Notes under the pieces: model-generated | Told to the model about the DNA's origin: nothing | Databases searched by the model: none | Seen by the model: only the letters and a program-made list of their open reading frames with translations | Shown: positions 7,973-20,640 of the stretch, piece by piece | Layout of the letters: the number at the start of each line of letters is the position of its first letter | How positions within the stretch are numbered: position 1 is the first letter of the stretch | Virus record (IMG/VR): IMGVR_UViG_3300021957_000377 | Span: 1-21,373 of that record | Strand: one strand, 5' to 3' | Length of the DNA stretch: 21,373 nt | Source: a virus | Program-made: the position numbers and the translations under genes

Positions 7973-8367
7973 TAAAGTGTTTCTAGCTTCATCACTTCAA
8001 TTATGTTTTTGATGTCAAAGCTCATTCCGCTGAATATACGTTCACCCTTTTCAAGGAAGTCTACAATCAATCGATTCTCCTTGATAGACTCATCAATGTT
8101 CTTTATGTTCGGGTGTTTTTCAGCTGCTTTTTGTGCTGTAGCGAGGGTGACTTGATATGTCGCGGTGTCTATCATCTCTTGAGCGATCATCTTGATGGTG
8201 TTATCACGAGATGATTTTAATCGCTCCAACTCACCTTTGGCTCTTATCAATCGACCAACCCACTTGTGCTTGAGAGCCGGGAGTTTCATTTGTACCTCTT
8301 TCAGGTTGAATTCGTCGAGATCAACATCCACGCCCATTTCCTTAATATATTGTTCTAGTTGTTTCAT
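7972..8367 (-). CDS. uvsY: UvsY-like recombination mediator
   Basis: Small protein (131 aa; T4 UvsY 137 aa) that in T4 loads UvsX recombinase on gp32-coated single-stranded DNA. The support is size, position directly before uvsW, and end-to-end resemblance: an N-terminal LEQYIKEMGVDVDLDEFNL segment, KHKWVGRLIRAKGELERLKSSRD (a basic helix for DNA binding), and the C-terminal FDIKNIIEVMKLE that parallels T4 FAIKHIQDMRAFE. It is the first gene of the uvsY-uvsW-55-47-46 operon and has its own upstream promoter. I see no Shine-Dalgarno sequence before the ATG. Confidence 0.82.
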   Translation of the reverse strand: MKQLEQYIKEMGVDVDLDEFNLKEVQMKLPALKHKWVGRLIRAKGELERLKSSRDNTIKMIAQEMIDTATYQVTLATAQKAAEKHPNIKNIDESIKENRLIVDFLEKGERIFSGMSFDIKNIIEVMKLETL

Positions 8368-8414: not shown

Positions 8415-8735
8415 ATGAAACTTTTCGAAACTATATTTTACAAACATTTAAACGAGACCAACATGTCAGGAGCTGGCGGTGTTTTTGGTGATACTGGCAG
8501 CATGGGGTTCGGAGGAGCGGTTACCCCTGCCACTGACTTTTACGCACCTGGTGATAGTAGAATACCTAAAGGTGGTGCGAAGAAAGGTTCTGGATTCAAG
8601 CATTGTGACCATTGCAAGACCAAATCCAAGTGCCGCAAGGCTGGTAAATGTTTAGGACAGAACATGAAGGAAAAGAATGGTTCGATACAACCGCTGATTC
8701 CAATGCAACGTAGACCTTTGAACGGCGCGATGTAA
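8415..8735 (+). CDS. Gly-rich Cys-cluster protein with putative capsid-targeting N-terminus
   Basis: Function unknown; 106 residues. The N-terminus MKLFETIFYKHLNET is an amphipathic stretch ending LNE, like a T4 internal-protein targeting peptide with a gp21-type L-x-E cleavage site. It is followed by a Gly-rich linker (about 18-60) and then a compact basic Cys/His cluster HCDHCKTKSKCRKAGKC (63-79), which could bind zinc. The gene is the first plus-strand late gene after the divergent promoter region, with a late box upstream. An internal ATG (residue 17) could start a form without the peptide. The late box supports a virion or late role; zinc binding is inference. Confidence 0.75.
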   Translation: MKLFETIFYKHLNETNMSGAGGVFGDTGSMGFGGAVTPATDFYAPGDSRIPKGGAKKGSGFKHCDHCKTKSKCRKAGKCLGQNMKEKNGSIQPLIPMQRRPLNGAM

Positions 8736-9847: not shown

Positions 9848-10342
9848 ATGACTAAAGGTTTTGTAAATTCACTCCAGCAAGCACAAAAAAGATACATCAA
9901 TTCACAAGCAAATGTGGTGGTGGAATCAAACAAAACGTCCAATCTCATGAACGAAGTGTTTGGTAAGATCAGAAAGGCTGCCAACAAGATAGACAGGGTG
10001 TATCAACGAACAAAGAATAGTGGTGATGCTCTCGGTTCCATAGCCAGAGAGTACAAACCAACAGAAAAGGAACCGGAGCAACAGGACCCTAACAGTATAT
10101 TCGCTCCTCTACCAGGTAACAACCAACAAACACAGGGCCAAGATCAAGACACGAGCACACAACAGAATCAAAATTCCAGACGACCAACAGAAGATGTTGA
10201 GGATGATTGGGAGGAATATTTAGAGCCTGGGTGGAGTAAGATGGACACCGAGACTAGGTCGTTCTTTGACGATGATTTTCGAAAATTTGTACAGTACAAG
10301 ATGAAAGAAGCTAATTTGAAAAAAGCAGGAGCAAAATTATGA
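9848..10342 (+). CDS. hypothetical late protein, Gln/Pro-rich linker
   Basis: Function unknown; 164 residues. The basic helical N-terminus (about 1-65, with KIRKAANKIDRVYQRTKN) is followed by a Gln/Asn/Pro-rich low-complexity linker (about 70-115) and an acidic to mixed C-terminal domain (EDDWEEYLEPGWSKMDTETRSFFDDDFRKFVQYKM). A possible cleavage-type motif VVE-S occurs at about 24-27, but the N-terminus is less like the targeting peptides of its neighbours. A perfect late promoter precedes it and the next gene overlaps it by 4 bases, so a structural or head-core role is plausible but unproven. Confidence 0.8.
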   Translation: MTKGFVNSLQQAQKRYINSQANVVVESNKTSNLMNEVFGKIRKAANKIDRVYQRTKNSGDALGSIAREYKPTEKEPEQQDPNSIFAPLPGNNQQTQGQDQDTSTQQNQNSRRPTEDVEDDWEEYLEPGWSKMDTETRSFFDDDFRKFVQYKMKEANLKKAGAKL

Positions 10343-10683
10343 AATTTGTAAACATAATAGAAGAAAAGTTAAAGGTTTTGAACGAACAAGAACCTCCACC
10401 AGAAGATACAGATGTACCACCAGAAGATGAGGTCACCGAACCACAATCAACTGAGACTCCGTTGAGTGAATTACCGGATGAAGGAGATGGTGAAGATGAT
10501 ACATCAAAGCTCAAGGTGGATTATGTAGAGATGATCAGAAAAGCGTTGATCATGGCTCCCAAACATATCGATGATGTCGATTATGCTCGGTTGACCAAGA
10601 TAGTTGACACAGAAAATTTAGAAGAGATGCAAGAGTTGGTGAGCAGAATTGTTCGCAACAACTATCCACATCCTGATTTGTGA
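10339..10683 (+). CDS. acidic late protein with putative capsid-targeting N-terminus
   Basis: Function unknown; 114 residues. It starts MKFVNIIEEKLKVLNEQ, a helix containing IEE-K and LNE-Q, both of the (I/L)-x-E type used by T4 prohead protease. A very acidic Pro-rich segment follows (about 18-55), then a folded-looking helical C-terminus (VDYVEMIRKALIMAPKHIDD onward). The ATG overlaps the upstream stop (ATGA) and has a good Shine-Dalgarno sequence, AGGAG at 10327-10331, 7 bases away. The acidic composition recalls small T4 prohead-core proteins such as gp67, but I cannot show homology. Confidence 0.8.
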   Translation: MKFVNIIEEKLKVLNEQEPPPEDTDVPPEDEVTEPQSTETPLSELPDEGDGEDDTSKLKVDYVEMIRKALIMAPKHIDDVDYARLTKIVDTENLEEMQELVSRIVRNNYPHPDL

Positions 10684-11834
10684 TGAGTGACGGTGATTTG
10701 AGAAATTTGTACGAAAATGTTCGTCGCGGTGCTGAATATGTTGCTCCTCGGCGTGAGAGTGAGTTATACAAAAATGTTTACATGGAGAAAAGTGGTAATA
10801 ATGAACTCAAAGTGTTGTGTAGGAAATTAAACGATATTGGTGACAGGGGCTATCTCTCAGATAGTGACCTTCTATATTTAAATCAATTTTTAGACTCACG
10901 TGCATATTTACCTATGATAATTAGTTACTTGAATGAGAGTAATATAACAGATAAGACGTTGTCAGATAAGAATGCTGTTGATGGTATAACAAATATATTA
11001 CAATCTGCTGGAGTTACTGATAAATTTGTCGATTATCTTGGCTCTCAGATAAGTTTTAATATTTTAGGTAAATCTGGCAATCTACTTGATATCATCTCTA
11101 GTAAGTTGAGTAAATTTAATATATCACGTGATGTTATTGTACGGTTAATGCAATTTGAGGGTACCGAAGGTGGTAGAGGTGTAGGTCAATGTGAGTTAGG
11201 GCTCGCGACGATATTTAACGATGTTACTGTTCGTGATAGTCATGGAGATCTTAGTTGGAGAGGTGAATATCTAGAAGTGAAAGGTAGTAAGGCTAGACTC
11301 GGTGGTAGAGATGTACCGCTTACAGGGTTTGAGCAAACGATTTTAGGTTCTTTTGCAATCCAACACGATTTACCATTTAGTACTATAAAGAGTGGTGGTA
11401 ATAAATACAATATCGTTGACACATTAATTGGTTTAAGTAAAGTTGGTGTGCCACCGGCTCAGTTGAAAGCTGGTGTAATTGAATTTGTTAAGAAGTGCTA
11501 TCCGAACTCAGGCAATATAACTATACCAGGCTCGTTTAAAGACAAAAATAAGCTGAGAAACTACTTAGAGACATGTTATTTCACTCACTACGCATTAACA
11601 GAGGGAGTTGAACATTTTATCTTTATTAATACAGGAACATCTCTAAAGGGTGGTTCAGAAATTAAAACACCTACTGCAAACTTTGGTAAGTATATAATAT
11701 TTCAAACACAAAACATACCTAAACTGGTAAATGCTGGTGCTATTGGTGCGAGCACAATAACATCAGCCAACATTTACCCTAGCCTCGGTGCACCAAATGT
11801 TAGTCAAGTACCATTAGAAGGAGCGATGGAATAA
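10683..11834 (+). CDS. probable PD-(D/E)XK nuclease-like protein
   Basis: A 383-residue protein that I do not recognise as a named family. A central segment reads GVGQCELGLATIF, then GDLSWRGEYLEVKGSKARLGGR. E171, D189 and the E198-V-K200 pair are arranged as in PD-(D/E)XK nucleases (E in a helix, D, then ExK on the next strand, followed by a basic ARLGGR). The N-terminal 160 residues look helical and the C-terminal 170 mixed. Codon use is richer in T- and A-ending codons (GAT, AAT, GGT, TTA) than in both neighbours, suggesting recent transfer. The ATG at 10683 overlaps the upstream TGA by one base; an in-frame GTG at 10680 is possible. No Shine-Dalgarno sequence is seen. Confidence 0.65.
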   Translation: MSDGDLRNLYENVRRGAEYVAPRRESELYKNVYMEKSGNNELKVLCRKLNDIGDRGYLSDSDLLYLNQFLDSRAYLPMIISYLNESNITDKTLSDKNAVDGITNILQSAGVTDKFVDYLGSQISFNILGKSGNLLDIISSKLSKFNISRDVIVRLMQFEGTEGGRGVGQCELGLATIFNDVTVRDSHGDLSWRGEYLEVKGSKARLGGRDVPLTGFEQTILGSFAIQHDLPFSTIKSGGNKYNIVDTLIGLSKVGVPPAQLKAGVIEFVKKCYPNSGNITIPGSFKDKNKLRNYLETCYFTHYALTEGVEHFIFINTGTSLKGGSEIKTPTANFGKYIIFQTQNIPKLVNAGAIGASTITSANIYPSLGAPNVSQVPLEGAME

Positions 11835-11835
11835 A

Positions 11836-13164
11836 ATGAACTTCAAAGCATACAACAGAGTGATAGAGGAAGGTGGCGCATATGGCCACATGATGAACGT
11901 GCATGAAGATTACACTTTACAGTTTGAAGACCTGCAACGCATCATCAAACAAGCACTGACCGGTGGAATCAAAGGAGAAATCAAAGAAAAGACCGATGGA
12001 CAAGCGTTAGCAGTGAGCCACCGTGCAAATCGTGTGATATTTGCACGCAACAAAGGGCATTACAAAGCATTTGGTAAAAACGCCATCCGAGGCGCCAAGG
12101 GCATTGCAGAATTTTTTGGAGAACATCCGAATGACAACGTGAAAGAAGCATTCACATTTGCAGCAAAGGACCTAGAAAAAGCCATCCTGGCTTTGAGTGA
12201 CAGGCAGAAGCAGTTGTTGTTCGCGGACGGCAAAAGATGGATCAACATTGAGATAATCTGGCCGGCAACCGTGAATGTGATCCCATACAACCATGAATTG
12301 ATCGTGTTGCACAATTTCCGGGAATATGATGAAGATGGTAACACGTTAGATGGTGATTTTGATGAATATGGTCGCATGATGGCGGGTATGATTCAGCAAG
12401 TGAACCAACATGTACAAGATAAGTTCACGATCACGAGCATGCCATTGATGAAGTTACCACAGGTCAAGAATTTTGAATCCGGAATGGGTGAATACATTGG
12501 CACATTGAATGGCTTGATGAATCAACATGGTTTGAATCCGAGTAACAGTGTGGGAGATTACTGGGTGAGTTACATGAGCGGGGTAATACAAAACGGAGCA
12601 CGAGAGTTTGGTTACAATGTACAAACGGACACACTGAAGCGCATCGCTTACAGATGGGCGTTCAAGATGCTCACACCAGGTAAGCGACCAAAAGACTACA
12701 ACTCACTAGCACTCAGTAGGTTGCCAGACTTGAAAGGTATTGTTGATAATAAAGAATTTATACAATGGATAGGAGCCACAGAACGTGGAGGTGAACTCAA
12801 GACCCACTACAATAACATGATCGAACCACTTAAGGCGTTGTTCCTAAAATTAGGAGTTGAATTGAACAACAATATAACTAACCTCTTGACACTAAATCCG
12901 TCACAAGCTGTACAAGAGATCCGGCAAGGTATAGAGGAGGTTACACGCGAGATACAAGCAACTGGAGATTTAGCGTTGATGGACAAGTTGAACCATGAAT
13001 TGAAAATGATCAACAAGTTGGGTGGTCTTGACAACATAGTACCTACCGAGGGTTTGACCTTTACATACACTCCAGATGGAGAAACAGAACCCAGAATATA
13101 TAAATTCACTGGGATATTTGCACCCGTGAATCAGATACTGGGTAGCTTAAAATTTAGTCGTTAA
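11836..13164 (+). CDS. RNA/DNA ligase-like nucleotidyltransferase with putative capsid-targeting N-terminus
   Basis: A 442-residue protein carrying motifs of the covalent nucleotidyltransferase superfamily (ligases, capping enzymes). Motif I is K52-T-D-G55 in KEKTDGQALAVS, K52 being the expected AMP-accepting lysine. A motif III-like strand is RWINIEIIWP with E139. Near the C-terminus, TEGLTF (E405, G406) and YKFTG (K423) resemble motifs IV and V. The large insert between motifs III and IV is unusual. It starts MNFKAYNRVIEEGG, where IEE-G matches the T4 prohead protease rule (I/L)-x-E then G/A/S, so the enzyme may be packaged. AAGGAG lies 12 bases upstream. It could equally be an inactive structural relative. 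Its 3' end overlaps the next, convergent gene by 11 bases. Confidence 0.7.
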   Translation: MNFKAYNRVIEEGGAYGHMMNVHEDYTLQFEDLQRIIKQALTGGIKGEIKEKTDGQALAVSHRANRVIFARNKGHYKAFGKNAIRGAKGIAEFFGEHPNDNVKEAFTFAAKDLEKAILALSDRQKQLLFADGKRWINIEIIWPATVNVIPYNHELIVLHNFREYDEDGNTLDGDFDEYGRMMAGMIQQVNQHVQDKFTITSMPLMKLPQVKNFESGMGEYIGTLNGLMNQHGLNPSNSVGDYWVSYMSGVIQNGAREFGYNVQTDTLKRIAYRWAFKMLTPGKRPKDYNSLALSRLPDLKGIVDNKEFIQWIGATERGGELKTHYNNMIEPLKALFLKLGVELNNNITNLLTLNPSQAVQEIRQGIEEVTREIQATGDLALMDKLNHELKMINKLGGLDNIVPTEGLTFTYTPDGETEPRIYKFTGIFAPVNQILGSLKFSR

Positions 13165-13429
13165 GGTCTTTTGTTATCTGATTTAATTTCTTGTCAGCCT
13201 TGTTGTATATCTTTTGCACACCAGGAGTAGGTTTTTTACCAGCCATCTGTTGACGTTCTTCTTCTTGTTTCAACTTAATAGCAGCTGCAGTTTCAGCTCC
13301 CTCATCCTCTTCATCATCTGCAGCCTCTTCAACTGGTTTTGATGCTTCAATTTGTGCCATTCTAGACTCATATACTCTCAGATATGCCTGTTCCAACAGG
13401 ATATTTTCATCTTTTGATGTGTTTGTCAT
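13154..13429 (-). CDS. small acidic late protein with putative capsid-targeting N-terminus
   Basis: Function unknown; 91 residues, on the minus strand against its neighbours. The N-terminal region includes ENILLEQAYLRVYESRMAQIEASKP, with LLE-Q and VYE-S as candidate prohead protease sites. An acidic Glu/Asp/Ala run (about 38-50) is followed by a Lys/Gln-rich C-terminus (KPTPGVQKIYNKADKKLNQ). A perfect late promoter on the minus strand lies 5 bases before the ATG, which argues strongly that this is a real late gene although it runs against the block. Confidence 0.8.
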   Translation of the reverse strand: MTNTSKDENILLEQAYLRVYESRMAQIEASKPVEEAADDEEDEGAETAAAIKLKQEEERQQMAGKKPTPGVQKIYNKADKKLNQITKDLND

Positions 13430-13434
13430 GTGAT

Positions 13435-13442
13435 TATTTATA
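13435..13442 (-). promoter_or_regulatory. T4-type late promoter box (perfect), minus strand
   Basis: TATAAATA on the minus strand, 8 of 8, with 5 bases to the ATG at 13429. It lies back to back with a plus-strand box at 13471. Confidence 0.75.
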
Positions 13443-13470: not shown

Positions 13471-13478
13471 ACTAAATA
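13471..13478 (+). promoter_or_regulatory. late-promoter-like box
   Basis: ACTAAATA (6 of 8), 6 bases before the ATG at 13485; identical to the box before the Nudix gene. Confidence 0.5.
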
Positions 13479-13484
13479 GGTTGT

Positions 13485-13664
13485 ATGAGTAACTCACATG
13501 ATAGTTTGACAGCTCTTTTTGAGCAATACGTTAGCGAGAACGAAAAGTTCAACGAGAAACAAAATAAAGCCGCCGGTACCCGAGCGAGAAAGGCACTTAT
13601 GGAAATCACTAAACTCTGCAAAGAGCGGAGAAAAGAGATTCAAGAAGCTAAAAATAACAACTAA
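13485..13664 (+). CDS. histone H1-like (Hc1-type) protein with putative capsid-targeting N-terminus
   Basis: A 59-residue protein. Residues 22-57, FNEKQNKAAGTRARKALMEI followed by a KERRKEIQEAKN tail, match from memory the Hc1/histone H1-like family of small basic DNA-compacting proteins known from Chlamydia and Bacteroidetes (typical core: EKGNKAAGTRxRK). The first 20 residues differ from that family: MSNSHDSLTALFEQYVSE ends in LFE-Q and VSE-N, as expected for a T4-type head-targeting propeptide. This suggests a DNA-binding protein packed with the genome in the capsid. It has its own late-like box 6 bases upstream and no Shine-Dalgarno sequence. Confidence 0.75.
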   Translation: MSNSHDSLTALFEQYVSENEKFNEKQNKAAGTRARKALMEITKLCKERRKEIQEAKNNN

Positions 13665-13669
13665 ACCTG

Positions 13670-13677
13670 AATAAATA
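13670..13677 (+). promoter_or_regulatory. T4-type late promoter box
   Basis: AATAAATA (7 of 8), 5 bases before the ATG at 13683, filling the 18-base gap after the histone-like gene. Confidence 0.6.
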
Positions 13678-13682
13678 CTTCT

Positions 13683-14117
13683 ATGCACAACAACACATGG
13701 AAGAAGGAAAGGGATCTCTTATCAGAAGCTTACAACGCTGTAACTGAAACAGATCACGGCAACATCCAAACCGCTCTAGGACCAGATGAAGAAGAGCAAG
13801 AGGATGGTAGTATCAAAAATACAAAAACCGGCGAGACTGTTCACAAGCCTAAAAGCAAAGTAAATGAAGAGATTGGTGACCCTCTTGGTGATGAAGTTGG
13901 TGAGATTCAACCTGAAATAGATGCAGAGTTCACACGTGAGCCTGATGAGGTTGATGCTGAAATCGACTCGCTCAAGAGCCTAATTCTCAACCCACCGGTT
14001 GACAAGATTGAAGAATATGCTCGTCAAGGTCAACTGCATGTTTATGTTGATATGTTGAAGAAGAAGCTTGAAGCAGCAGAAGCTGTGAAGGCTGCAGTAC
14101 GTGGTGAGGCTGAATAG
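13683..14117 (+). CDS. acidic late protein with putative capsid-targeting N-terminus
   Basis: Function unknown; 144 residues, strongly acidic (many Glu/Asp between 30 and 105). The start MHNNTWKKERDLLSEAYNAVTE contains LSE-A, a textbook T4 prohead protease site, and VTE-T a little later. The C-terminal third is helical (VDKIEEYARQGQLHVYVDMLKKKLEAAEAV). Size and charge recall T4 scaffold-core or internal head proteins. It ends 7 bases from the convergent stop of FolE2. A late promoter box precedes it. Confidence 0.82.
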   Translation: MHNNTWKKERDLLSEAYNAVTETDHGNIQTALGPDEEEQEDGSIKNTKTGETVHKPKSKVNEEIGDPLGDEVGEIQPEIDAEFTREPDEVDAEIDSLKSLILNPPVDKIEEYARQGQLHVYVDMLKKKLEAAEAVKAAVRGEAE

Positions 14118-15209: not shown

Positions 15210-15217
15210 GATAAATA
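15210..15217 (+). promoter_or_regulatory. T4-type late promoter box for the QueD/QueE operon
   Basis: GATAAATA (7 of 8), 7 bases before the ATG at 15225. No other clear promoter is seen on the plus strand until 18610, so this box may drive all seven genes up to QueE. Confidence 0.62.
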
Positions 15218-15224
15218 ATTTAGT

Positions 15225-15671
15225 ATGTCCAAGTTCAATTCATTGATGGAGAGTAATCTCAATAAAACAAATCTACTTCGCATCCGTATCAAACATGATC
15301 CTGCCAACGGTATTGGTGAGATGAATGATTATGTTGGCTATGTACTAGAGGAGGATGGAATGGGCAATGTGGTTGCGATTGTTCCTCAAATGGGTGGTGA
15401 TACTATGTCCTTTGGACCTGGTCAATACACACATGATGATGTACCTTGTGGAGATGACGAGCAACAAGCAGATCCATTGAGTACGTTCAAGAAACACATT
15501 GTCAAACACTTGATTGAGCGTGGTTATCATGACAAGGTCAAAAATCATATGGATGAAATAATTAACGCGAAGGATGTTTCACAGTTGGAAAATCTATTAC
15601 ACGGATGTGGTTGTAATGGTGTTGCTGTATTGAACATGTATAGAGATTTTGTATCAGATGCAACGGTTTGA
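15225..15671 (+). CDS. hypothetical late protein with putative capsid-targeting N-terminus
   Basis: Function unknown; 148 residues. It begins MSKFNSLMESNLNK, where LME-S fits the prohead protease rule. A beta-rich middle (LRIRIKHDPANGIGEMNDYVGYVLEEDGMGNVVAIVPQM) is followed by a helical C-terminus with a HGCGCNG motif (about 126-132), two close cysteines that might bind metal. It is the first gene of the operon and overlaps the nucleotidylyltransferase start by 14 bases. Confidence 0.8.
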   Translation: MSKFNSLMESNLNKTNLLRIRIKHDPANGIGEMNDYVGYVLEEDGMGNVVAIVPQMGGDTMSFGPGQYTHDDVPCGDDEQQADPLSTFKKHIVKHLIERGYHDKVKNHMDEIINAKDVSQLENLLHGCGCNGVAVLNMYRDFVSDATV

Positions 15672-16305
15672 TTCATTGTATGGCTCGCTGTTGACCGAGC
15701 AAGATGAGAATGTTCTCAAGATAGGTATATTTCCTGGCGCATTCAAACCACCTCATGTAGGTCACTACACGACTGCGTATGATGCATGCAAGAACAACGA
15801 TAAGGTCTACATTTTCGTGTCAGACAAGCCGAGACCATTAACCACACAACACAAGGGGAACAAGAAAGAAGTACCAGATTCTGCTAGATATGCCAATATT
15901 CTCAAATCTGACAAATACACAGACCGATTGTTAGGTGTACAAACAGCAGGTGTGGCGAGAATGACAAGCGCGACTGCGTTCCGGTCTGCAATTTCTATTA
16001 AAGACAAAGTAACCATTTCCAAGAACATTCCCGAGGGGGTTGACAGTGACAGAGTCTATGATATCTTGATGAAGAGCAATGATCTTGACAATCCTGGTTA
16101 TGGTCATATCACAGTAGAACAAACCATGGACATCTGGATGCTCTACAAGCCACTACTAATTAATCTCACCGGGATGAATCCAGAAGATATAATAATACAA
16201 GTATCCAAACCAAGTCCTGTGAAAGACACATACGACTTGGTTGATCAACTTAACAAATCTGAACAAGCGGGTAACATAGGAGTAAGACTTTACGTAGGAG
16301 AGTGA
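15658..16305 (+). CDS. cytidylyltransferase-like nucleotidylyltransferase (NMNAT/CTP-type fold) with putative capsid-targeting N-terminus
   Basis: Transfers a nucleotidyl group to a phosphorylated substrate. It has 215 residues from the ATG at 15658; a TTG at 15649 would add three and is less likely. The fold is marked by KIGIFPGAFKPPHVGHY (21-37) with HVGH (33-36, the HxGH nucleotide-binding motif), and by MTSATAFRSAI (102-112), corresponding to the second ISSTxxR-type motif. The substrate (NMN, a sugar-1-phosphate, phosphopantetheine and so on) cannot be fixed from sequence. The first 14 residues, MQRFDSLYGSLLTE, precede the enzyme domain and end LTE-Q, as in a head-targeting propeptide. 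It sits in an operon with QueD and QueE. Confidence 0.82.
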   Translation: MQRFDSLYGSLLTEQDENVLKIGIFPGAFKPPHVGHYTTAYDACKNNDKVYIFVSDKPRPLTTQHKGNKKEVPDSARYANILKSDKYTDRLLGVQTAGVARMTSATAFRSAISIKDKVTISKNIPEGVDSDRVYDILMKSNDLDNPGYGHITVEQTMDIWMLYKPLLINLTGMNPEDIIIQVSKPSPVKDTYDLVDQLNKSEQAGNIGVRLYVGE

Positions 16306-16730
16306 TGAAGAGATTTGGACGTTACGATAATGACTTTAATGGTCTGTTTGAATGTTACCGACAGGTGAACAGTCTGGTGGTTGAGCGTGAGCTACCCAGT
16401 GCAACCAGACAGCCCACCTCAATAACAACCGGTGATTCATTTCCTGGTATAAAGACTATCAAAGTTTTTGTGCAGCGACCAGGTAGAGGTGCAGATCTGA
16501 CCAATATAATAGATGTGAACAGACTGGGTAGTGATAATGGTGATAATGGTACTGTTATCTCAGGGACTGAAGGAGATAAGATATTCAATGTCACAACCAC
16601 ATCTAAAGGATCACAAATAAAGACTTACGACAATGAAAATAACCTGGAGAATGATTTCGTCACCAACATAGCACCTAGATATGATAGTGAGGCGAGGGAA
16701 CTGGTTATTATACATGTAGAAGAATTATGA
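16305..16730 (+). CDS. hypothetical protein with putative capsid-targeting N-terminus
   Basis: Function unknown; 141 residues from the ATG at 16305, which overlaps the upstream stop by one base (TGATG). AGGAG at 16296-16300 is 4 bases away; a GTG at 16302 would be too close to it. The N-terminus has FNGLFECYRQVNSLVVEREL, with LFE-C and VVE-R as candidate cleavage points. The rest looks beta-rich and Gly/Asn/Thr-rich (VFVQRPGRGADL, NGDNGTVISGTEGDKIFNVTTT). Confidence 0.78.
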   Translation: MKRFGRYDNDFNGLFECYRQVNSLVVERELPSATRQPTSITTGDSFPGIKTIKVFVQRPGRGADLTNIIDVNRLGSDNGDNGTVISGTEGDKIFNVTTTSKGSQIKTYDNENNLENDFVTNIAPRYDSEARELVIIHVEEL

Positions 16731-17213: not shown

Positions 17214-17804
17214 ATGTATAGTAGCACAAAGATAATTGAATTAGGTAGCTGTGCTTTTAGACAACCTAAAGCGGTCTCACACTGCAGGTTTATTCATGGC
17301 TACAGACTAACAGCGAAATTTTGGTTTAATGCAACCACACTTGATGATAACAACTGGGTTGTTGACTTCGGAGGTTTAAAGAAACTCAAAAGCACACTAC
17401 AAAATCAATTTGATCACACTCTGTGTGTATCAGCAGATGATCCTTATTTACATGCATTTGAGAAACTGAAAGACATGGGTGCAGTAGACTTGAGAGTAAT
17501 GGACGGTGTTGGTATTGAAATGTTCGCTGAATGGTGTCATGGCCAGGCAGACGTTTATGTGAATGAGTTGACTGATGGTAGGTGCAGATGTACCAAAGTT
17601 GAGTTATTTGAACATGAGAACAACTCAGCCATTTACGAATGTGATTTGACTGGTGAATCATTCTCAGAACCGGAACACAAACAACAAGTGGAGACACCAA
17701 CTGAACAAATCAAACCAGATACAGCTGTGTCTGTTAACTCGAACGAACGTAAATTAAAAAACAAGTGGGTTGATGAAAAATCCACCAACGTTTGGGGATT
17801 ATAA
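17214..17804 (+). CDS. queD: QueD-like 6-carboxytetrahydropterin synthase
   Basis: Converts 7,8-dihydroneopterin triphosphate (the FolE2 product) to 6-carboxytetrahydropterin. It has 196 residues from the ATG at 17214; an in-frame TTG at 17190 lacks support. The PTPS-fold marks are SCAFRQ (12-17), HCRFIHGYRL (23-32), VVDFGGLK (49-56) and DHTL (67-70). The usual metal ligands are changed: the first His region reads CAFRQ and the HGH motif reads HGY, leaving H23, C24 and H28 nearby. I recall phage and alphaproteobacterial QueD-like proteins with the same CFRQ/HGY form, so this looks like a subfamily, not decay. About 50 hydrophilic residues extend past the enzyme domain. QueE starts 2 bases after the stop. 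Confidence 0.88.
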   Translation: MYSSTKIIELGSCAFRQPKAVSHCRFIHGYRLTAKFWFNATTLDDNNWVVDFGGLKKLKSTLQNQFDHTLCVSADDPYLHAFEKLKDMGAVDLRVMDGVGIEMFAEWCHGQADVYVNELTDGRCRCTKVELFEHENNSAIYECDLTGESFSEPEHKQQVETPTEQIKPDTAVSVNSNERKLKNKWVDEKSTNVWGL

Positions 17805-17806
17805 TT

Positions 17807-18589
17807 ATGCAAGAAGAACCAACATCATTAGATCTTTCAGAGAGTTTCTACTCTGTACAATGTGAAGGTAACACAACAGGATACCCAGCATACTTTATTC
17901 GATTAAAATCGTGCAATTTGATGTGCGGGGGAAAGAATGGTGAGTTAATGAAAACCGGAGAAGCTACCTGGTGGTGTGACACGGAAGCTGTTTGGAGAAA
18001 GGGGTTCGAAAAACCATTCTACAAGCTCATACAACAATGGGAACAAGAAGAGATTGATCAATGGATATATAATGGTAGAATACATCTGATATGGACTGGT
18101 GGTGAACCTACAATACCCAAACATCAGAGAGCTATACCAGCTTTTCATGAACATTTGAAGAGTTACGTTAAAGACAAACACGACCTGACGTTAAACACCT
18201 TTGATGAGATCGAAACTAACGGCACTCTCATTATCAAAGATGATTTGTTTGAGATATTGGATCAGATCAACTGCTCGGTCAAGCTAGCTAATTGTGGCAT
18301 GCCAGAAAACCGCCGGATTATCCCGGAGGCACTGGAGAAAATAATGTCTCATAAGAACTACTGGTTCAAATTTGTGATCAGCACAGAGGATTGCTTGAAG
18401 GAGATTGAAAGAGATTTCATCAAACCTTTCAACATACCACATGATCGTGTCATGATGCAACCAGGTCTTGACAGACAAGAAAATTTCCATGAACGTACAC
18501 GATTCACGTTAGAGATGGCCAAGAAATATGGTTACATTGGATTGTCCAGGCTGCATGTCAGTGCATGGGACAAGCTTACAGGTGTGTAG
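17807..18589 (+). CDS. queE: QueE-like 7-carboxy-7-deazaguanine synthase (radical SAM)
   Basis: Radical-SAM enzyme that contracts 6-carboxytetrahydropterin to 7-carboxy-7-deazaguanine. It has 260 residues from the ATG at 17807, 2 bases after the QueD stop; a TTG at 17792 is unlikely. The marks are SFYSVQCEGNTTGYPAYFIRL (the SxQGEGxxxGxP region), the cluster cysteines C36, C40 and C57-D-T, TGGEP (97-101), EIETNGT, and SVKLANCGMPENR for the SPK loop. The cluster is CX3CX16C instead of the usual CX3CX2C, with about 14 extra residues (including Gly and two Trp) between the second and third Cys. It closes the operon. Confidence 0.92.
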   Translation: MQEEPTSLDLSESFYSVQCEGNTTGYPAYFIRLKSCNLMCGGKNGELMKTGEATWWCDTEAVWRKGFEKPFYKLIQQWEQEEIDQWIYNGRIHLIWTGGEPTIPKHQRAIPAFHEHLKSYVKDKHDLTLNTFDEIETNGTLIIKDDLFEILDQINCSVKLANCGMPENRRIIPEALEKIMSHKNYWFKFVISTEDCLKEIERDFIKPFNIPHDRVMMQPGLDRQENFHERTRFTLEMAKKYGYIGLSRLHVSAWDKLTGV

Positions 18590-18622: not shown

Positions 18623-19330
18623 ATGCGATTAGCAATATCAGGCACTGCAGGTCAAGGCAAAACAACACTGCTCAACGAATTCCTAGAAAATTGGAAGATG
18701 TACACAACTCCGGAGAAGAGCTACCGGAGTTTGCTCACAACAGACAACCATAGCAAGAACACAAGCAAGGAAACTCAATGGAGTATACTCAATTTGATGC
18801 TCGATCAATTGGAACAGAGCAGCAGTGATGATTTTGTCATCTTTGATAGATGTCCTCTCGACAATCTCGTGCATACCATGTGGGCATACCACAAGAATGT
18901 AGGTGACATCGATGAATTGTTTGTGGAGAAGTGTATACCAATCGTGAGAGAGAGTATGCGGTTGTTAGATATCATATTCATGATTCCAATAACTAACGCC
19001 GCACCAGCGGATATTCAAGACGATGGCGTTAGAGAGACAGATGCTGATTATATAGCAGAGATTGACAACTTCTTCAAGGCTATGTACACAAACTGGAGTA
19101 AAGATGATCAGCGATTTTTTCCTAAGGATGACCGGACGGCTATCATCGAAATCTTCGGTACAACAGAAGAGAGAATCAAATTGTTAGGATTTTATGTCGA
19201 TGATAGTGGTAAGATGTTTGGAGAAGACGACTCACTAGTGGATACTAACACATTATACGACCAGTTCGGTATACCAGTGGCTGCGGATGCTAGTGAAGGT
19301 GCAGAAGATAACATCAAAATATATAAATAA
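18623..19330 (+). CDS. P-loop ATPase/kinase, AAA_28 (NadR kinase-like)
   Basis: A 235-residue nucleotide-binding protein. Walker A is GTAGQGKTT (7-15), directly at the N-terminus as in small-molecule kinases. ETQWSILNLMLDQLE, then DDFVIFDRCPLDNLVHTMWAY with the DRxPxD pattern, match AAA_28, the family holding the ribosylnicotinamide kinase part of NadR and other nucleoside kinases. The tail after about residue 185 is acidic and may be a separate segment. The substrate is unknown; nucleoside, nucleotide or nicotinamide riboside are options. The gene ends Tyr-Lys-stop, forming the next late box. Confidence 0.78.
   Translation: MRLAISGTAGQGKTTLLNEFLENWKMYTTPEKSYRSLLTTDNHSKNTSKETQWSILNLMLDQLEQSSSDDFVIFDRCPLDNLVHTMWAYHKNVGDIDELFVEKCIPIVRESMRLLDIIFMIPITNAAPADIQDDGVRETDADYIAEIDNFFKAMYTNWSKDDQRFFPKDDRTAIIEIFGTTEERIKLLGFYVDDSGKMFGEDDSLVDTNTLYDQFGIPVAADASEGAEDNIKIYK
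18706..18731 (+). repeat. short inverted repeat inside coding sequence
   Basis: AACTCCGG (18706-18713), 10-base loop, CCGGAGTT (18724-18731): a perfect 8-bp stem near the 5' end of the ATPase gene. No T-run follows. It could form an mRNA hairpin that affects translation or decay, or be chance. Confidence 0.4.
19322..19329 (+). promoter_or_regulatory. T4-type late promoter box (perfect)
   Basis: TATAAATA, 8 of 8, 7 bases before the ATG at 19337. It is formed by the terminal Tyr-Lys-stop codons of the ATPase gene. Confidence 0.75.
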
Positions 19331-20632: not shown

Positions 20633-20640
20633 TATTTATT
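20633..20640 (-). promoter_or_regulatory. T4-type late promoter box for phoH, minus strand
   Basis: AATAAATA on the minus strand (7 of 8), 6 bases before the phoH ATG at 20626. It overlaps the -35 element of the divergent promoter by 2 bases, so the two may compete. Confidence 0.58.

Follow-up and report, generated by a model that had tools for sequence, protein, structure and literature searches.

A tail-less Hc1-domain protein behind a late-promoter element in a T4-type phage fragment and in the baseplate operon of other T4-type phages

The window, i.e., the whole 21,373-nucleotide stretch of viral DNA that was analyzed (IMG/VR record IMGVR_UViG_3300021957_000377), encodes a UvsW-like helicase, UvsY, PhoH, an SMC-type ATPase and a metallophosphatase in gp46/gp47 order, and a sigma-like protein. 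These genes mark it as a fragment of a T4-type phage, in agreement with the setting proposed in the initial annotation; both gp21 and gp23 were found in a close relative (G005), ~61 kb from the gene described here. The features at the locus are:

13485..13664, + strand: Hc1-domain (PF07432) protein, the whole protein being the domain (open reading frame, Pfam)
13472..13478, + strand: T4-type late-promoter element CTAAATA, ending 6 nt before the Hc1 ATG (motif, kept in relatives)
13435..13441, - strand: back-to-back late-promoter element ATAAATA, before the divergent neighbor 13154-13429 (motif)
13491..13559, + strand: predicted helix 1, residues 3-25, including LFEQYVSE at residues 11-18 (AlphaFold2 model)
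13566..13658, + strand: predicted helix 2, residues 28-58, with the NKAAGTRARKAL core (AlphaFold2 model, alignment)
13683..14117, + strand: downstream neighbor with its own late-promoter element (ATAAATA, 13671-13677) and the N-terminal motif LLSEAY (sequences of relatives)

The Hc1 open reading frame was confirmed to run on the + strand from the ATG at 13485 to the stop codon ending at 13664 and to encode 59 amino acid residues (pI 9.25, net charge +3). PF07432 was the one significant Pfam family for this protein (E 6.7e-17; 61.5 bits against a cut-off of 23.5), and the alignment covered profile positions 5-57 of 57, i.e., the full-length domain. The Hc1-like family call of the initial annotation was borne out by this near-complete match. 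A six-frame search also scored above the cut-off (60.2 bits), and the conserved K-A-x-x-x-R-x-R-K core of the family is present. Searches of NCBIfam and PHROGs with the protein returned only weak, uninformative matches, and a sequence search of the PDB gave only chance matches to antibodies, which were discarded. The relatives confirmed in viral contigs numbered at least 559, and 80 were retained. Between close relatives, pN/pS of the gene was 0.13-0.29 at a pS of 0.62-0.91, which indicates a protein-coding gene under purifying selection. The open reading frame is thus a genuine gene, and its resemblance to Hc1 is far beyond chance.

The gene order around Hc1 is common to eight viral records. 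When the neighboring gene 11836-13164 was used as the query, nine loci were recovered; two of them stop short of the Hc1 position at a contig edge and were left out, and Hc1 was present in all seven usable loci. Hc1 therefore looks like a standing gene within the clade of the window.

No Shine-Dalgarno sequence was seen before the Hc1 ATG. TAAATA occupies the same place before Hc1 in the relatives L001, L002, L003, L006, and L007/L008. Within the window, this hexamer lies no more than 20 nt from the start of 11 of the 29 listed genes, compared to 0.28 expected from random sites (P about 2e-15). This random-site comparison is the valid test, because the ATAAAT spacing control is not independent of the motif, with which it overlaps. 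Throughout the clade, the distances between TAAATA and the start codon form a sharp peak at 5-6 nt. The 11 gene starts in the window carry the element mostly 5-9 nt upstream (e.g., 13472-13478, 13671-13677, 15211-15217, 19323-19329, and 20633-20639), and a Shine-Dalgarno sequence is absent at nearly all TAAATA-bearing gene starts in the window and its relatives. An element 5-6 nt from the start codon that lacks a Shine-Dalgarno sequence suggests that the late mRNAs would be leaderless or nearly so. Hc1 is probably expressed late in infection.

The structure predicted by AlphaFold2 from 36 sequences is a two-helix hairpin (mean pLDDT 93.8, pTM 0.75). On helix 2, the residues K28, R33, R35, K36, R49, and K56 are invariant among 36 phage and bacterial sequences. 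The basic moment of this helix lies ~150 degrees from its hydrophobic moment, which argues for an exposed basic face. Such an invariant face hints at nucleic-acid contact and goes no further than a hint. A Foldseek search of the PDB with the model returned nothing at E ≤ 0.001, only generic helical hairpins; the small terminase gp16 of phage 44RR (E 4) was rejected as a structural match, since this score is no evidence of one.

In chlamydial Hc1, the conserved N-terminus mediates dimerization, whereas the lysine-rich C-terminus binds DNA (PMC2848022). The window protein shares with Chlamydia trachomatis Hc1 (HctA) the N-terminal domain, described as the dimerization part (PMC2848022), but not the lysine-rich DNA-binding C-terminal half or the strong positive charge, as it ends at residue 59. 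Other phage copies, including those of S-SRM01 and the Lak phages, are likewise tail-less (~50-70 residues). Judged from their sequences, all phage Hc1 proteins examined here consist of the N-terminal (dimerization) domain only. The label "histone" given in the initial annotation consequently stands as a family name, but it overstated the chemistry of a protein with a net charge of +3 and without the chlamydial tail. With the eukaryotic linker histone H1 the protein has only the name in common, by way of chlamydial Hc1: it is modeled as a two-helix hairpin and not as a winged helix, and no eukaryotic H1 family was among its Pfam matches. No binding data and no function for tail-less Hc1 domains were found in the literature searched.

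The closest counterparts are the stand-alone Hc1 proteins of Spirochaetota, Balneolota, and Bacteroidota, which resemble the window protein in length (about 57-66 residues), region of the domain, NKAAGTRARKAL-type core, and invariant basic residues; the identity to a Sphaerochaeta protein is 65%. Unlike these bacterial genes, the window copy is phage-borne and lies behind a T4-type late-promoter element, and related phages place the gene in the baseplate operon. Synechococcus phage S-SRM01 (MW015081) encodes the same tail-less domain, annotated as "histone H1" and 58% identical to the window protein, with no adjoining annotated baseplate genes. In this genome (L082), Hc1 (8001-8189) lies ~3 kb from a Dps-like gene (11247-11681) that is annotated as a DNA starvation/stationary phase protection protein. 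PF07432 has also been described in moraphages, where genome compaction during packaging was offered as speculation (PMC12619734). Hc1 genes in phages are thus already annotated, in S-SRM01 and the moraphages. Their late baseplate-operon context looks new; neither the late promoter nor the Hc1-gp25-gp6 trio was found described in the literature searched, in which a single paper named PF07432 and which left most subscription journals outside its range. The Lak phage copies resemble the Bacteroidota type, and Hc1 was probably acquired by phages from bacterial genes more than once, although a tree of 122 Hc1 sequences rested on too few columns for the phage copies to be placed or transfers to be counted.

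The initial annotation had read the N-terminus of the protein (LFEQYVSE) as propeptide-like and had suggested that the protein may be packed in the phage head. The T4 internal head proteins IPI-IPIII and Alt bear capsid targeting sequences. In T4, gp21 cleaves after L/I-X-E, and the targeting sequences comprise about the first ten residues (PMC9026906). The window protein resembles these head proteins as a late gene of a T4-type phage with an L/I-x-E triplet at E13. This triplet occurs in five of the six lineages of the clade: E13 is preceded by LF in the window, L001, and L002 and by LV in L003 and L006, whereas L007/L008 have QVE. The second site (E18) reads VSE in the window and L002, TSE in L001, ISE in L003, VDE in L006, and IQD in L007/L008. 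However, the same N-terminus is found in chromosomal Hc1 proteins of Sphaerochaeta and its relatives (e.g., MTVHEQLVGLFETYVHENQKF), where spirochaete proteins have LFETYVHE in place of LFEQYVSE. These chromosomal genes adjoin housekeeping genes (U32 peptidase-like, Lon-like, and valyl-tRNA synthetase-like), and no phage genes were seen among the neighbors, which were examined by eye. Across the whole Hc1 set, L/I-x-E proved frequent in bacterial proteins too, occurring within the first 25 residues of 46/74 bacterial Hc1 proteins and 15/17 of the spirochaete type. The triplet at E13 therefore says little. An acidic residue occupies position 13 in 92% of 36 aligned Hc1 proteins, and together with the segment shared with chromosomal Hc1 this ruled out the propeptide as independent evidence. 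LFEQYVSE also lies inside both the profile match and predicted helix 1, and in the modeled hairpin that helix would not survive a cut after E13 or E18. The segment is thus best read, on the model, as ordinary Hc1 helix 1, a structural helix common to the bacterial proteins, and not as an added leader.

Better candidates for targeting sequences than Hc1 appear to be encoded by the genes at 13683 and 10339. LLSEAY is present in the product of the former in 6/6 lineages, where it would be an L/I-x-E site of the kind expected in a packaged T4-type protein, and an L-x-E triplet lies near the start of the latter, again in 6/6. An N-terminal L/I-x-E triplet was found in all relatives compared for four genes on the + strand (10339-10683, 13683-14117, 15649-16305, and 16302-16730), and their products are candidate packaged internal head proteins. 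A further small protein (8415-8735, + strand) has, by eye, a targeting-like N-terminus (MKLFETIFYKHLNE) and a cysteine-rich C-terminus; the stretch after its N-terminus resembles, also by eye, the gp23 N-arm of relative G005 (GAGGVFGDTGSMGFGGAVTPATDFYAPGDSRIPK).

The order gp5-(PAAR)-Hc1-gp25-gp6 was found in many other T4-type phages, and Gp5_OB, PAAR, GPW_gp25, and Gp6 were confirmed by Pfam in the Hc1-containing run. Among the 74 viral loci that do not belong to the clade of the window, 55 have a gp25 gene that starts 5-44 nt past Hc1. As these 74 loci had been found via Hc1 itself, the search was repeated from three gp6 proteins. Hc1 was then present in 116/182 loci with enough upstream sequence and, after clustering of gp6 at 90%, just upstream of gp25-gp6 in 69/93 clusters; the gp6 queries came from Hc1-carrying phages, and distant relatives were more often without Hc1. 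The gap between Hc1 and gp6 measured 350-500 nt in 115/116 loci, which is room for gp25 alone. Among nine gp25 clusters, the median identity was 35% for gp25 and 69% for Hc1. In the clade of the window, the baseplate region is arranged differently, with gp25 ~54 kb from Hc1 in G002. No Hc1 was detected anywhere in the genomes of HTVC008M, Mosig, Melnitz-3, and Syn1, where other small genes fill the operon slot and a search of that slot for a hidden copy was negative; HTVC008M and Syn1 have both gp25 and gp6. In HTVC008M (L178), a very basic 47-residue protein is encoded upstream of gp25 (2597-2740).

We favor, tentatively and at somewhat less than an even chance, the explanation that Hc1 forms basic-faced dimers that act on nucleic acid inside the cell at a late stage of infection. 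This explanation builds on what the analysis established, namely the family, the fold model, the late-promoter association, and the conserved late-operon context. By analogy with chlamydial Hc1, the stand-alone hairpin would dimerize. Its synthesis would be late, driven by the T4-type late promoter, and other T4-type phages would express it together with the rest of the baseplate operon; late expression is the common factor of these two contexts. The invariant basic residues may contact the phosphate backbone, so that the protein would behave as a small nucleoid-type protein, and we infer that its target would probably be replicated phage DNA around packaging. The phage proteins are close both to the bacterial copies (65%) and to one another (69%, against 35% for gp25), which suggests that an ancestral biochemical activity was kept and not recast as that of a structural part. 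The promoter element and the baseplate-operon synteny place the action late. Conservation with the bacterial copies thus favors a nucleoid-type activity, whereas the tight gp25-gp6 linkage points in the opposite direction and could signal a job in tail assembly. The absent DNA-binding part of chlamydial Hc1, the net charge of only +3, and the negative Foldseek search of the PDB also speak against a nucleic-acid role.

That linkage is central to the idea that Hc1 is a baseplate assembly factor or a small baseplate part that works through protein contacts and not through nucleic acid. It persists across gp25 proteins of 35% median identity, with the gene upstream of gp25-gp6 in most gp6 clusters and a gap that fits only gp25. 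Yet the clade of the window keeps Hc1 in every usable locus while it is unlinked from gp25, bacterial chromosomal Hc1 adjoins housekeeping genes, and relatives such as HTVC008M and Syn1 have gp25 and gp6 without any Hc1, so we regard this role as unlikely. A virion component of the head or of the tail and baseplate, entering the cell with the DNA and, in the head version, coating or condensing the packaged DNA, is slightly more credible but still improbable. It would fit a late-promoter element beside neighbors with capsid-targeting-like N-termini, the placement of Hc1 between the hub/spike genes (gp5, PAAR) and gp25 in other phages, and the related idea of compaction in moraphages (PMC12619734). 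Against it, the protein has no targeting sequence beyond features of chromosomal Hc1, and gp21 and gp23 are distant in G005. No proteomics of an Hc1-carrying phage was found in the literature searched, and none appears in the main text of the S-SRM01 paper.

Chlamydial Hc1 represses transcription and condenses the nucleoid of E. coli (PMC2848022). A phage protein that binds the host nucleoid or RNA in a similar manner, for late shut-off or regulation, would also suit a gene probably acquired from bacteria more than once. The tail through which chlamydial Hc1 binds is nevertheless missing. Moreover, host shut-off by T4-type phages is usually early, whereas Hc1 has a late-promoter element, and we consider this the least probable of the roles weighed here. 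Hardly more probable, and a little less so than the baseplate role, is a broader proposal in which a large group of uncultured T4-type phages would have Hc1 as an integral component of their injection apparatus or head. Such a bacteria-derived nucleoid-type protein would be assembled with the spike-hub region of the baseplate or packaged with the DNA and delivered to protect or organize the genome on entry.

Under the favored explanation, a protein acting on nucleic acid inside the cell, Hc1 is not a cleaved internal head protein, and the tempting story of a phage histone in the head gives way to one that can be tested. In a large group of aquatic T4-type phages, a conserved late gene encodes a bacterial-type Hc1 domain and is usually tied to gp25-gp6. 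Should it bind nucleic acid, Hc1 would be a nucleoid-type protein made by phages when they package DNA, and the function of tail-less Hc1 domains becomes tractable through a phage copy with a late promoter in front of it.

Elsewhere in the window, FolE2 (PF02649; 14125-15165, - strand) and a 6-pyruvoyl tetrahydropterin synthase/QueD-like protein (PF01242; 17190-17804, + strand) are encoded, and the product of 17792-18589 (+ strand), which has no Pfam match, is QueE-like by eye. These three genes may represent a preQ0 pathway for a modified guanine in DNA.
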